A stretch of DNA of 34,711 nucleotides from a virus. Where the stretch lies: positions 1-34,711 of the IMG/VR virus record IMGVR_UViG_3300042879_002956, one strand, 5' to 3'. A model generated the notes under the pieces. The model worked only from the letters and a program-made list of their open reading frames with translations. It was not told where the DNA came from and made no database searches. The translations under genes were made by a program, and so were the position numbers. Positions 21,833-25,732 of the stretch are shown here, piece after piece (within the stretch, counting starts at the first letter, position 1; every line of letters begins with the position of its first letter).

Positions 21833-22194
21833 TTAGTCTCAGTTTTACTCTTGAGCAAAAAGGGGTCGGCCTCAATAATCTCTTGCACCTGTTTTGGTGT
21901 AAGCGTCTCTCTGACCGTGATCTCTTGCACCTGCTCGATCTTGTCAGTCTGTTGAAGAAGCTGCTTACCTAGCCAGATTAGCATAGAAGTATTACCCTTT
22001 TTCGCTGCTTCTAATTGCCAACGCCTGAGTGAGATTTTCAGGTTTTCTCGGCCTTTTGCGAGTTCCTCCGAAAAACGGCCATCAAGAGTGTCGACCGAAC
22101 AGCCTACGACAATAGCGATCTCACTTGTCTTGCAGCCGATTGAGGCAAGGTCTTGAACGAGTTTTGGGTCGATATTGAGCTTAGGCCGCGCCAT
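21829..22194 (-). CDS. terS: Terminase small subunit
   Basis: This 121-residue protein has an N-terminal helix-turn-helix-like segment (IDPKLVQDLASIGCKTSEIA with VVGCSVDTLDGRF). A helical region follows (LRRWQLEAAKKGNTSMLIWL), then a charged C-terminus. LRRWQ..AA..GN..MLIWLGKQ is typical of small terminase subunits, which form a ring that recognises the packaging site and recruits terL. It is directly upstream of terL with ATGA coupling and overlaps the methyltransferase gene by 14 bases. Confidence 0.88.
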   Translation of the reverse strand: MARPKLNIDPKLVQDLASIGCKTSEIAIVVGCSVDTLDGRFSEELAKGRENLKISLRRWQLEAAKKGNTSMLIWLGKQLLQQTDKIEQVQEITVRETLTPKQVQEIIEADPFLLKSKTETK

Positions 22195-23386
22195 TATCTA
22201 CCCCTGCTTTAATATCGTCCCATGCCACGCCGTCTTCGCGGTGTGCTTTCTTGCCCGTGAACTTCTGCCAGCGGTCGAGAATAACGCCGCAGTAGTGAGG
22301 GTCTAGCTCCATCATGAAGCAATGACGGTCAGTTTTTTCACAAGCGATTAGCGTTGACCCTGAGCCGCCGAAAAGATCGAGCACAAGCCCTTTAATCTTT
22401 GAGGAGTTTCCGATTGCATGTGCTACCATGTCCACTGGCTTCGGAGTCGTATGACCGCTCACGCTTTCGCGACCAAACTCCCAGACCGAGGTTTGCTTCC
22501 GATCCGAATGCCAAGCATGCGCAGCGCCTTCCTTCCATCCGTAAATACAAGGCTCATGGCGGGACTGGTAATCGGTCTGGCTTAAGACGAGTTGGGGCTT
22601 TACCCAGATAACCATGCTTGAGAAATGGAAGCGTTTTCGGAACTCCTGATGAAACAGGTCTGCGCAGCGGTCTGAATGAAAGCAGTAAATGGGCGCACCA
22701 TTTTTTATCGAAAGCAAGTAATGGTCGAAAACCGCCGAAAGCAGATCGGAAAGCCCATCGCGCGAGTCGTTGTTAATCCCCTCGTAGTCCACGCCATATG
22801 GCGGATCAGTGAAAACCATATCGGCTTTCTTCCCATCCATCAGCCGCTCAACATCGGTGATCGCAGTCGAGTCCCCGCACATGAGCCTATGGTTCCCAAG
22901 GATATAGACCTCGCCCTTGACTACCTTTGGCTCTGGGAGCGCGTCTGGTACCTCGTCCTCGTCGCACTGAGGCTCAAGCTTTTCAATCGGCTCAAGTACG
23001 AAGTCTTTAATTCCAAGCAGGTCAATATCGAAGTCAGGGCCAAGGTCTGTCAGGTCTGCATTAACTCCGGACAGGTCTAGCTCTGACCATGACGCAATGG
23101 AATTGTCAGAGATCGTGTCAGCGTACTCTTGTTCCTCGCTGTCATAGTCTTGAAAACTGACCGGGACCTCTTTCCACTTGAGAAGCTTTGCAGCCTCAAG
23201 CCGACCATGCCCTGAGGTAATAAATCCCGAGCGTTTACTCACCTTAATCGGATAACGCCAGCCTTGAAACTCTAAGATTTTAGCAAGCCGTTCAATTTGA
23301 TCCTTTGGATGACTGTTACGATTTAAAGGGTTTGGCTTCAATTCTTTGACGTTGACCAGCGCATCATGCGGGCAATGTACAATCAT
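22181..23386 (-). CDS. ParB-like domain / DNA methyltransferase fusion
   Basis: This is a 401-residue two-domain protein. Residues ~5-95 carry a ParB/sulfiredoxin-like nuclease-type domain (LKPNPLNRNSHPKDQIERLA and GFITSGHGRLEAAKLL). Residues ~155-375 form an amino-methyltransferase with catalytic DPPY at 194-197 and the SAM-binding LDLFGGSGST at 336-345, the order of beta-class enzymes that make N6-methyladenine or N4-methylcytosine. No cognate restriction enzyme is nearby, so it is an orphan, probably protecting phage DNA or marking packaging or replication sites. It overlaps terS. ParB-methyltransferase fusions are known in phages. The start has GGAG seven bases upstream. Confidence 0.88.
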   Translation of the reverse strand: MIVHCPHDALVNVKELKPNPLNRNSHPKDQIERLAKILEFQGWRYPIKVSKRSGFITSGHGRLEAAKLLKWKEVPVSFQDYDSEEQEYADTISDNSIASWSELDLSGVNADLTDLGPDFDIDLLGIKDFVLEPIEKLEPQCDEDEVPDALPEPKVVKGEVYILGNHRLMCGDSTAITDVERLMDGKKADMVFTDPPYGVDYEGINNDSRDGLSDLLSAVFDHYLLSIKNGAPIYCFHSDRCADLFHQEFRKRFHFSSMVIWVKPQLVLSQTDYQSRHEPCIYGWKEGAAHAWHSDRKQTSVWEFGRESVSGHTTPKPVDMVAHAIGNSSKIKGLVLDLFGGSGSTLIACEKTDRHCFMMELDPHYCGVILDRWQKFTGKKAHREDGVAWDDIKAGVDNGAA

Positions 23387-23893: not shown

Positions 23894-24406
23894 TCAATTG
23901 TGCGTTAGTTGTGCCGAAACATGATCAATCAATTCAGTTTCCTTGCTGCCTGGCCTGCGATTGAGCAGCGCTCGCGCCAGTCCTCTCCACTGCGCCTTGT
24001 AAACCGAAACGGTTTCATCTTGCACCATTTCGCAGACTCGTTGCCACCCGCCTTCTCGAGCGATGATCTCCCACGCGATCTCCCCGACGAACTCACGCGC
24101 TTTTTTTGGATTGTTCCATCCGAATCGCGAAAGCGCCTCTGGAATGCGCGAGGCAATCTCGGCTGCCCGGTCGTCGAGATTTTCACTCGGCGCAACTCTT
24201 GCGCGAATCATGGCTGGCAAGGGGAAACGCGTCACTTTCGGATCTCGGCGAATATCTTGAAACGCCTGAAGCAACGCGCCTTGCGGTAAATCTGCGAGAT
24301 CCTCGGCGTACATAGCCAGTACGCGATCAGGAAACTGCGTCTGGTAATAAGCGCATAGATAAATTAACTGCTGCTGTATCCAACCCGTACTAGCTTTGGA
24401 GTCCAT
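23894..24406 (-). CDS. Putative replicative helicase loader
   Basis: This 170-residue protein contains FPDRVLAMYAEDLADLPQGA, LLQAFQDIRRDPKVTRFPLP and AMIRARV. This is the helical pattern, with Asp/Leu repeats and a TRFPLPA turn, seen at the N-termini of phage helicase loaders related to lambda P and the G39P/DnaC group. The rest is helical (EFVGEIAWEIIAREGGWQRV) and ends in a charged tail. It follows the initiator-like gene with a 17-base overlap, a lambda O/P-like pairing. No AAA+ ATPase motif is present, so it is not a full DnaC. The call rests on motif similarity and position. Confidence 0.55.
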   Translation of the reverse strand: MDSKASTGWIQQQLIYLCAYYQTQFPDRVLAMYAEDLADLPQGALLQAFQDIRRDPKVTRFPLPAMIRARVAPSENLDDRAAEIASRIPEALSRFGWNNPKKAREFVGEIAWEIIAREGGWQRVCEMVQDETVSVYKAQWRGLARALLNRRPGSKETELIDHVSAQLTHN

Positions 24407-25268
24407 TTTGAAGCCTTATCAACTGTTGCTGCAGGTAGTCAAGTCTTTCCTCGCCTTTTGCTTCCTGGCTTGTCGTCATGCGGCCAGTGTCGAGCGCTAG
24501 TGCGATCTTGTTTTGATTCTGAGCGAAGGTTTCAAAATCGTGGGCTTTGGTCAGAAACCAAGAATCGTTCATCTGGCAATAGGCCGAGATCAGTTCACAT
24601 GCCCGCTCGATTGCCACCGACGCTAGGTAGCGTTTGATTCCTCCGAGCGTCTTGCCATCGAGGAATGGTCGCGTTCCCTGCCCGTAACGTTTTGCGTAAG
24701 CTGCCACGTATGCGGCGATGAACTTACCCGACAAATTCGGTTGGACCGAATCGGGATTCGTGTCGTTTGCGTTAGCAAACGTTTCTTGTTTTTTTGAGCG
24801 AGAGTGAGAGGGAGAGTAAGAGCTAGAGTTAGAGTAAGAGTAAGAGGGTTGGGTTTGCTTCGTTTTGCTTGGTGTTTGCTTGGCGTTTGCTTGGATGGTA
24901 TCTGACTCTTTTTGTCTCTCTTTAAATTGACCAGATTCGTCTCTTATAAGACTCTCAGACGCCTTTACTCCACCTTTGCGCCCCGCTTCAATTCGAGCAG
25001 ATAACCAACCAAGATGGTCTTCGGCGCCAGACAAATACACCCCTTCTTCAGTCACTTTTGCCAACCCAACTTCAAGCAGTTTGTCGGCATCTTTTAGACA
25101 GTCAAAAATGGTTTTTGGGACTAATTTTTTGTCGCGGTAGTATTGTTGTGCAACGCGTACGGCTTCAAAAAAAACGCCCGTTGCATAAGCTGCTGACCCT
25201 AGCTTTTCACCTAAAAGTGTTCGTCTTGGATCGCTCCACCATTTGTCTTCAATATTGATTCTCGGCAT
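24390..25268 (-). CDS. Replication initiator / replisome organiser-like
   Basis: This 292-residue protein has an N-terminal winged-helix-like region (~1-95: EKLGSAAYATGVFFEAVRVA then LLEVGLAKVTEEGVYLSG), as in phage replisome organisers. A disordered linker (~100-175) contains a hexamer-encoded Ser/Tyr tract (YSYSNSSSYSPSHSRS). The C-terminal helical region (~180-265, IKRYLASVAIERACELISAY) could bind the helicase or loader. It is the first gene on the minus strand after the divergent control region. GGGG precedes the ATG. The linker DNA carries repeats that may be the origin, as in lambda O. Family membership is inferred from layout. Confidence 0.55.
   Translation of the reverse strand: MPRINIEDKWWSDPRRTLLGEKLGSAAYATGVFFEAVRVAQQYYRDKKLVPKTIFDCLKDADKLLEVGLAKVTEEGVYLSGAEDHLGWLSARIEAGRKGGVKASESLIRDESGQFKERQKESDTIQANAKQTPSKTKQTQPSYSYSNSSSYSPSHSRSKKQETFANANDTNPDSVQPNLSGKFIAAYVAAYAKRYGQGTRPFLDGKTLGGIKRYLASVAIERACELISAYCQMNDSWFLTKAHDFETFAQNQNKIALALDTGRMTTSQEAKGEERLDYLQQQLIRLQNGLQS
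24735..24892. repeat. Candidate replication origin: iterons and inverted repeats
   Basis: Within the initiator gene, four GTTTGCTT-like units start at 24853, 24862 (GTTTTGCTT), 24874 and 24885; their TTTGCTT cores are 10-11 bp apart, about one helical turn. The same GTTTGC core occurs in a perfect inverted repeat, CGTTTGC GTTA GCAAACG (24764-24781). A second inverted repeat, ATTCGG TTGGA CCGAAT, lies at 24735-24751. Between them are about 50 bp of GAGNNA hexamers (24799-24848). The layout recalls the lambda origin inside gene O. Because the repeats also encode a low-complexity linker, replication function is unproved. Confidence 0.5.
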
Positions 25269-25292
25269 AGTTTTCCCCTTTTTTGTTTGACG

Positions 25293-25386
25293 GGGAACAT
25301 CGCTTCAGGCATCAAGAATCTTGAGTACAAATCATTGCGATTTCTTTCTTGCCCGAAGTAATGTTCCCGCATTCTTCGGGTTTTTT
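25293..25386 (+). promoter_or_regulatory. Candidate antiterminator/terminator switch in divergent region
   Basis: Segment A (25293-25310) can pair with segment B (25351-25368) through 16 of 18 positions including one G-U. Segment B also supplies the 5' arm of a terminator whose 3' arm is 25370-25380 followed by six T. The two structures cannot coexist, as in transcription attenuators. Between A and B lie two short inverted repeats, TCAAG AAT CTTGA (25312-25324) and AAATC ATTGC GATTT (25329-25343), which could be protein-binding sites. No convincing promoter was found upstream on the plus strand (a TTGACG at 25287 lacks a -10). Confidence 0.45.
25352..25386 (+). terminator. Rho-independent terminator in the divergent region
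   Basis: CCCGAAG pairs with CTTCGGG, and after a bulged T, AATG pairs with CATT, giving an 11 bp stem with a six-base loop. Six T then ATTT follow on the plus strand. It stands before the first plus-strand gene, so it would stop a short leader transcript unless it is bypassed. Confidence 0.7.
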
Positions 25387-25439
25387 ATTTCCATATTTTC
25401 CGATCAATGTAAAACTGAAGTTACCGTGACGACGGAGAA

Positions 25440-25625
25440 ATGGAGCCATATATGGAATACAAAATTAAAGAACCAAGTCTGAAAAAGGGCAATCAAAAGG
25501 ACGCATCCGCGTACAGCGAAAAGGTCGCTTCGGTTGCTCCGCGCAAGTCTGCTCCCCTCGATGCTAAGGGGCAAACGGGCAAAAAAGATGAGAGCCCGTA
25601 TAAAGAGCATTGCAAAGATGAATAA
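25440..25625 (+). CDS. 61-residue basic peptide, unknown
   Basis: This 61-residue Lys/Glu/Ser-rich peptide (MEPYMEYKIKEPSLKKGNQK onward, ending YKEHCKDE) looks disordered. Two ATG codons are possible. The first has GGAG four bases before it; the second, four codons on, has GGAG six bases before it. It is followed by a strong terminator, so it could be a self-contained transcription unit under the leader switch. No family is recognised. It may be a host-takeover or DNA-mimic-type peptide, but nothing in the sequence shows that. Confidence 0.5.
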   Translation: MEPYMEYKIKEPSLKKGNQKDASAYSEKVASVAPRKSAPLDAKGQTGKKDESPYKEHCKDE

Positions 25626-25660
25626 GCGCTTTTAGCGTCGTCTTTGCAGAGATGCCATGG

Positions 25661-25695
25661 GAGGGGTAGGAATTGGGGCCTATCCCTCTTTTTTT
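25661..25695 (+). terminator. Strong rho-independent terminator
   Basis: GAGGGGTAGG and CCTATCCCTC form a 10 bp stem with one G-U pair around an eight-base loop, followed by seven T. It ends the short transcription unit of the 61-residue peptide, 35 bases after its stop codon, and isolates it from the following early genes. Confidence 0.85.
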
Positions 25696-25697
25696 GC

Positions 25698-25726
25698 TTT
25701 ACACTGTCCGACAATTAATTTAACAA
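25698..25726 (+). promoter_or_regulatory. Candidate promoter for the early operon
   Basis: TTTACA (one mismatch to TTGACA) and TAACAA (three mismatches to TATAAT) are separated by 17 bases, immediately after the terminator. A start six to seven bases beyond would fall on the ATG of the SSB-like gene, giving a leaderless message, which fits the absence of a Shine-Dalgarno there. The weak -10 lowers confidence. Confidence 0.4.
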
Positions 25727-25732
25727 ACCGTC

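Follow-up and report, generated by a model that had tools for sequence, protein, structure and literature searches.

A candidate phage replication origin composed of iterons and an adjoining hexamer tract inside an initiator-like gene

Results

A replication-initiator-like gene of a virus, which has iterons and an adjoining hexamer tract in one linker, probably contains a phage replication origin. The iterons would be bound by the initiator, and the tract would act in sequence-specific strand capture and helicase loading. The gene lies at positions 24390-25268 (minus strand) of an IMG/VR virus record of 34,711 bases; this whole stretch of analysed DNA is called the window. The record carries genes of phage type (terminase, major head protein, methyltransferase, and Erf).

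The open reading frame encodes a 292-residue protein (P0001), for which no match was found in Pfam, PHROG, or NCBIfam, the lambda O (Phage_rep_O) family included. PF09681 (Phage_rep_org_N) matched neither P0001 nor the 21-member family alignment. Relatives sharing the N-terminal domain, in which the start M[AP]RINIE is conserved, match PHROGs described as 'replication initiation', 'O-like', 'DnaD-like helicase loader', and 'replisome organizer'. The whole proteins of some relatives match O-like PHROGs. P0001 was named an initiator because its N-terminal relatives match these replication-initiation, O-like, and DnaD-like families.

In the AlphaFold2 model of P0001, pLDDT is mostly high over residues 11-110. 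The model, the fold matches, and the M[AP]RINIE start point to a winged-helix-like N-terminal domain (residues 6-117; 24918-25253, minus strand), which presumably binds the iterons. The fold matches were weak: the helix-turn-helix proteins (MarR type, LexA, and the winged helix of RuvB) did not exceed Z 4.2, and among the winged-helix-type and phage replication-protein matches none was convincing. Residues 118-178 (24735-24917, minus strand) form a linker that holds all the repeats and is predicted to be disordered, with pLDDT below 50 over most of residues 126-176. The model ends in a helical C-terminal domain (residues 179-289; 24402-24734, minus strand), which presumably contacts a partner or a loader.

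No helicase or loader was recognised in the adjoining genes. The neighbour gene at 23894-24406 was considered as a helicase loader and rejected, since examination gave no support. A gene for a DNA methyltransferase with an N-terminal ParB-like domain (22181-23386; phrog_498 and ParB-like PHROGs) adjoins the replication gene. Between the initiator gene and the rightward genes on the Erf side lies a divergent intergenic region (25269-25732). By eye, it contains the inverted repeats CGGGGAACAT...ATGTTCCCG and CCCGAAG...CTTCGGG, and it has the appearance of an operator or promoter region.

The first-pass annotation had described iterons, a hexamer tract, and two inverted repeats within the linker of a replication gene. 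All of these repeats are present where it placed them, in the low-pLDDT part of a protein whose N-terminal relatives are initiators. Four iterons with TTTGCTT-like units occupy 24854-24894, starting at 24854, 24864, 24875, and 24886 (spacing 10, 11, and 11 bp). They read TTTGCTTGG or TTTGCTTCG on the plus strand and CCAAGCAAA on the gene strand. Tandem direct repeats at approximately helical spacing inside an initiator gene are a mark of in-gene iteron origins, and the window has them. The hexamer tract lies at 24793-24846; its gene strand is (CTCTNN)8 followed by CTCAAA, and its plus strand is (GAGNNA)n. Beyond the tract, as seen from the iterons, the iteron core forms the inverted repeat CGTTTGC-GTTA-GCAAACG (24764-24781), and a second inverted repeat, ATTCGGT-TGG-ACCGAAT, is located at 24735-24751. 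Both have perfect 7-bp arms. Since such arms are not rare, the two repeats are only suggestive as parts of an origin, and the second may be due to chance.

Across the whole 34.7-kb record, the top lag-6 stretch is the window tract. All 8/8 consecutive units have CTC on the gene strand. They are read as TCT-NNC codon pairs, with the third base fixed in each of the eight TCT and eight NNC codons (16 wobble bases). The variable codon encodes Y, Y, N, S, Y, P, H, and R, and the differences among the units are amino-acid changes. We recoded the window gene 5000 times with the protein held constant, using either its own codons permuted or the phage codon usage. The 8/8 CTC units were obtained in 1/5000 and 0/5000 recodings, respectively, and the four iteron copies in 244/5000 and 87/5000. 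No recoding had both. Thus, the iterons alone are moderately significant, and the tract is strongly so.

The GC content of the tract is 0.42, against 0.48 in the gene, and a weaker 40-bp stretch exists elsewhere in the gene. For these reasons, an AT-rich DUE was rejected as the identity of the tract, which does not supply the AT-rich unwinding element that stands beside the iterons in an in-gene iteron origin. A turning point of the cumulative GC skew near 24.8 kb had been put forward as a check on the origin and was not seen there: the skew falls across the window and flattens only at 24-28 kb. This flattening coincides with the change of gene orientation, and the skew, being confounded by transcription, neither supports nor refutes an origin.

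To follow the tract among relatives, we used 23 genes picked by N-terminal protein similarity alone, a set that is partly non-independent (L009 and L011 being closely related). The locus-wide lag-6 maximum falls in the linker in 22/23 genes, and the six-base periodicity exceeds that of synonymous shuffles of the same gene in 23/23 (p ≤ 0.02). The tract unit is CTCTNN in 22/23. It is read in codon phase 1 in 10 genes (LTLT, LSLS, PTPT, and QSQS) and in phase 2 in 12 (SYSY and SSSS or poly-Ser). In one gene (L010), a continuous hexamer switches its reading from LTLTL to SNSNSN. A test for CTC at period 6 gave p ≤ 0.02 in 21/23 genes; L019 and L156 missed this level.

The core CTC is kept at 93-100% in both phases, a figure that is partly by construction as units were seeded on CTC; that CTC is retained independently of the phase is no artefact of the seeding. 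The hexamer letters at wobble positions differ between the phase groups, yet each group retains the same letters. Because CTCTNN is retained in two codon phases, it is the DNA of the tract that is conserved rather than the protein, the reverse of what is expected from selection at the protein level. The first-pass annotation had supposed that the low-complexity linker tolerates the repeats. Mere tolerance does not explain tract DNA that is kept across frames. The hexamer tract, which that annotation named last, is the most conserved part of the candidate origin. The simple iteron test was passed by 12/23 genes, and the others missed p < 0.05. When close relatives were sought for a substitution comparison, only distant ones were found: the phage collection gave 0 matches and the genomes one locus, and besides the genome of that locus, 398 genomes of its phylum gave 0 matches.

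The tract was also approached from the DNA, with three hexamers scanned in IMG/VR; on these three, the signature may be GAGNNA or wider. A search of all viral contigs for (TCTTAC)3 gave 101 stretches, 80 of which were read. There were 61 ORFs of at least 150 aa, and 48 were scanned. PF09681 was found in 26/48 scanned ORFs, a fraction that is somewhat flattering because the 13 ORFs omitted by eye were a near-identical protein set and those with the tract outside a linker-like place. The PHROG tallies are mostly of organiser, DnaD-like-loader, and replication-initiation families, and some organisers have a DnaB_2/DnaD-type domain. In the 84 bases before the tract, a repeated 8-mer occurs in 3.89 copies; control stretches taken from these 46 genes have 1.93 and 2.20 (sign p=2e-10).

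(TCTCTA)3, which had been chosen as a control, lands alike, with PF09681 in 23/44 ORFs after near-duplicates were dropped and a repeat excess beside the tract (p=1e-5 and 0.004). With the balanced control (AGCATC)3, an organiser family of any kind was found in 0/44 ORFs, and repeats were no commoner than in the downstream stretch (16 genes). In other organiser families, the tract is read as SKSK, RVRV, and EIEI. A set of near-identical 370-aa proteins of no known family (L054, L060, L062, L072, L083, L092, L104, and L108) has SKSKSKSGELNAIQS; in L104, the single copy examined, no marked repeats were seen beside the tract.

We also analysed 16 PF09681-type genes of annotated phages, picked by the N-terminus and spread along the match list. 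The lag-6 maximum of the locus is inside the gene in 16/16, and iteron-like repeats immediately precede the tract in most of them. The tract exceeds synonymous shuffles (p<0.05) in 10/16, the Glu-rich EIEI weakening this test. Repeats such as TTGGACAATGTCCAA lead directly into AGAGATAGAG in several phages, among them Lactococcus 4268, S. thermophilus STP1 and CHPC1230, and Brochothrix BL3. The repeat-plus-AGAGAT layout was also observed in an unannotated gene of the Streptococcus satellite phage Javan596 (L294), and satellites may share this hexamer-tract origin type.

DUF1376 genes of prokaryote genomes suggest the layout in about 2/11 loci (L425, and weakly L423), several of the 11 having a wrong central ORF or masked sequence. 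Thus, the iteron-plus-tract layout is not universal. The DUF1376 protein gene of L425 has GACGGGGAC repeats at codons ~214, followed by a (GACAGT)n tract read as SDSDSD. Initiator-like genes in L028 (reverse strand), L025, L033, and L026 have AAGCAAACGCAAGCAAAC iterons and then other tracts: the seven-base ACAAATA (L028), the five-base AGCAG (L025), GATAGT, and CTGTTA. Outside the families studied, the tract unit takes more forms than GAGNNA.

Discussion

We propose to recognise a hexamer-tract origin by a CTCTNN/GAGNNA tract that abuts iterons in the linker of an initiator and is conserved in more than one codon phase, and this is what was found here. In the proposed mechanism, the N-terminal winged-helix domain would occupy all four iterons from one side of the DNA helix, forming a head-to-tail array, as their 10-11 bp spacing suggests. 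The duplex would open at the (CTCTNN)n/(GAGNNA)n tract abutting the bound array. The initiator or its helicase loader would then capture one unstructured strand of the tract, onto which the helicase would be loaded, and replication would initiate in this region. The assignment of the iterons as initiator sites, with opening in the module next to them, follows the example of lambda, SPP1, and iteron plasmids (PMC7466680, PMC6316719, PMC10797057). Because the tract is not AT-rich and yet its sequence is kept, we infer that a protein, whether the initiator, a loader, or one of the host, recognises it as a strand. The pyrimidine strand, being poor in G, should have little structure, as expected of a helicase-loading strand.

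The tract might instead be a neutral hexamer microsatellite, produced by slippage in a dipeptide-tolerant linker, with the iterons alone being of importance. Some tracts, (TCTTCC)n in L007 and (TCCTAC)n in L018 among them, are perfect tandem repeats that resemble recent expansion, the linkers are disordered, and other initiator genes show other periods (seven bases in L028 and five in L025). However, diverged tracts retain CTC in both codon phases while other positions vary, and in the window tract the wobble positions are frozen. The tract also adjoins the iterons, whereas the control hexamer repeat is located elsewhere. Thus, we regard slippage as unlikely. Selection on the protein linker, which would be Ser/Thr/Gln-rich and phosphorylated or flexible, with the DNA repeats as a by-product, would suit the Ser-rich sequence in the window and half of the relatives. 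It is extremely improbable, since the same DNA encodes SYSY, LTLT, QSQS, and PTPT in this family but SKSK, RVRV, and EIEI in other organiser families, and since synonymous recodings do not reproduce the repeats.

Initiators often control themselves through repeat binding, and this initiator gene is the first of a leftward transcription unit, with a rightward unit opposite. The repeats would then be an autoregulatory operator or an mRNA element of the initiator gene, and no origin. We consider this very unlikely: the repeats lie ~370-530 bp into the gene, and PF09681 genes carry GAG on the coding strand but the window family on the template strand, as would suit a DNA element rather than an mRNA one. 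More chance, though still a small one, is given to the tract as a phage DnaA-trio or DnaD recognition element (DRE), which has T/A at every third base and would be bound by host DnaA or a DnaD-like domain. In its favour, (TACTCT)n resembles the B. subtilis DRE CTACTATTACTTCTACTA (PMC10201434), DnaA-trios require only NAN triplets (PMC8287927), and a DnaB_2/DnaD-type domain is present in some organisers. In contrast, (TCTCTA)n, which is frequent at these sites, is without T or A at period 3. The three-base pattern is followed by TCTTAC-type tracts only; in the window tract it holds for part of the units and not overall. As a general rule it was rejected, because the intended control TCTCTA occupies like sites.

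Beyond the window, we lean towards the view that the two-module origin represents a large unrecognised class of phage origins. In this class, an iteron array would be fused, within the linker of the initiator, to a six-base-period CTCTNN/GAGNNA tract dedicated to sequence-specific single-strand capture or helicase loading, which would replace the AT-rich DUE and explain the dipeptide linkers. If so, the SKSKSK, EIEIEI, LTLTLT, and poly-Ser linkers of phage replication proteins would be DNA features, and a repeat signature readable from the sequence would permit origin prediction across many phages and satellites. The biochemical question would be what reads the CTCTNN strand beside the iteron array. 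Few phage origins have been mapped so far. No earlier description of hexamer tracts at phage origins was found in open-access full texts, and the two-part layout, across many otherwise unrelated phages and in different coding frames, does not seem to have been described before.

In lambda, the iterons are located in the middle of gene O and a second module adjoins them (PMC7466680; Stx-phage relatives are grouped with lambda), as in the window. The suggestion of a lambda-like origin within an initiator gene is to this extent supported, by the initiator-family relatives, by the iterons and second module in the disordered linker, and by the wide recurrence. However, the second module of lambda is AT-rich and the weakest duplex of gene O, whereas that of the window is CTCTNN with ordinary GC. 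When a hexamer repeat was sought in lambda O, none was found (13/30, p=0.99), and the annotated iterons and AT-rich element were present. Thus, the candidate origin would work like the lambda origin, but it is not filed as lambda-type because the AT-rich element is absent from it.

SPP1 oriL, in gene 38, has direct repeats and an AT-rich DUE within the replisome-organiser gene (PMC6316719). Direct repeats in an organiser gene are common to SPP1 and the window, whereas the SPP1 DUE is AT-rich. The organiser gene of Bacillus phage 031MP002, which is followed by a gene annotated as the Gp40 helicase loader, had no significant hexamer tract (p=0.63). In the iteron plasmids RK2 and F, the DUE repeats are located outside the initiator gene. 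They are T/AT-rich 13-mers, unlike the CTCTNN tract of the window. These plasmids combine iterons with a repeated DUE that the initiator binds strand-specifically (PMC10797057).

B. subtilis oriC, with DnaA boxes and DnaA-trios/DRE, also places double-strand sites beside a repeated single-strand-binding motif, and TCTTAC resembles the DRE (PMC10201434, PMC8287927). Its rule is of three bases and not six, and TCTCTA tracts break it. The PF09681 organisers of Lactococcus, Streptococcus, and Brochothrix phages share with the window iteron-like repeats followed by a GAG-containing hexamer tract in the linker. They differ in that the N-terminus is of another family and GAG is on the coding strand, whereas in the window it is on the template strand.
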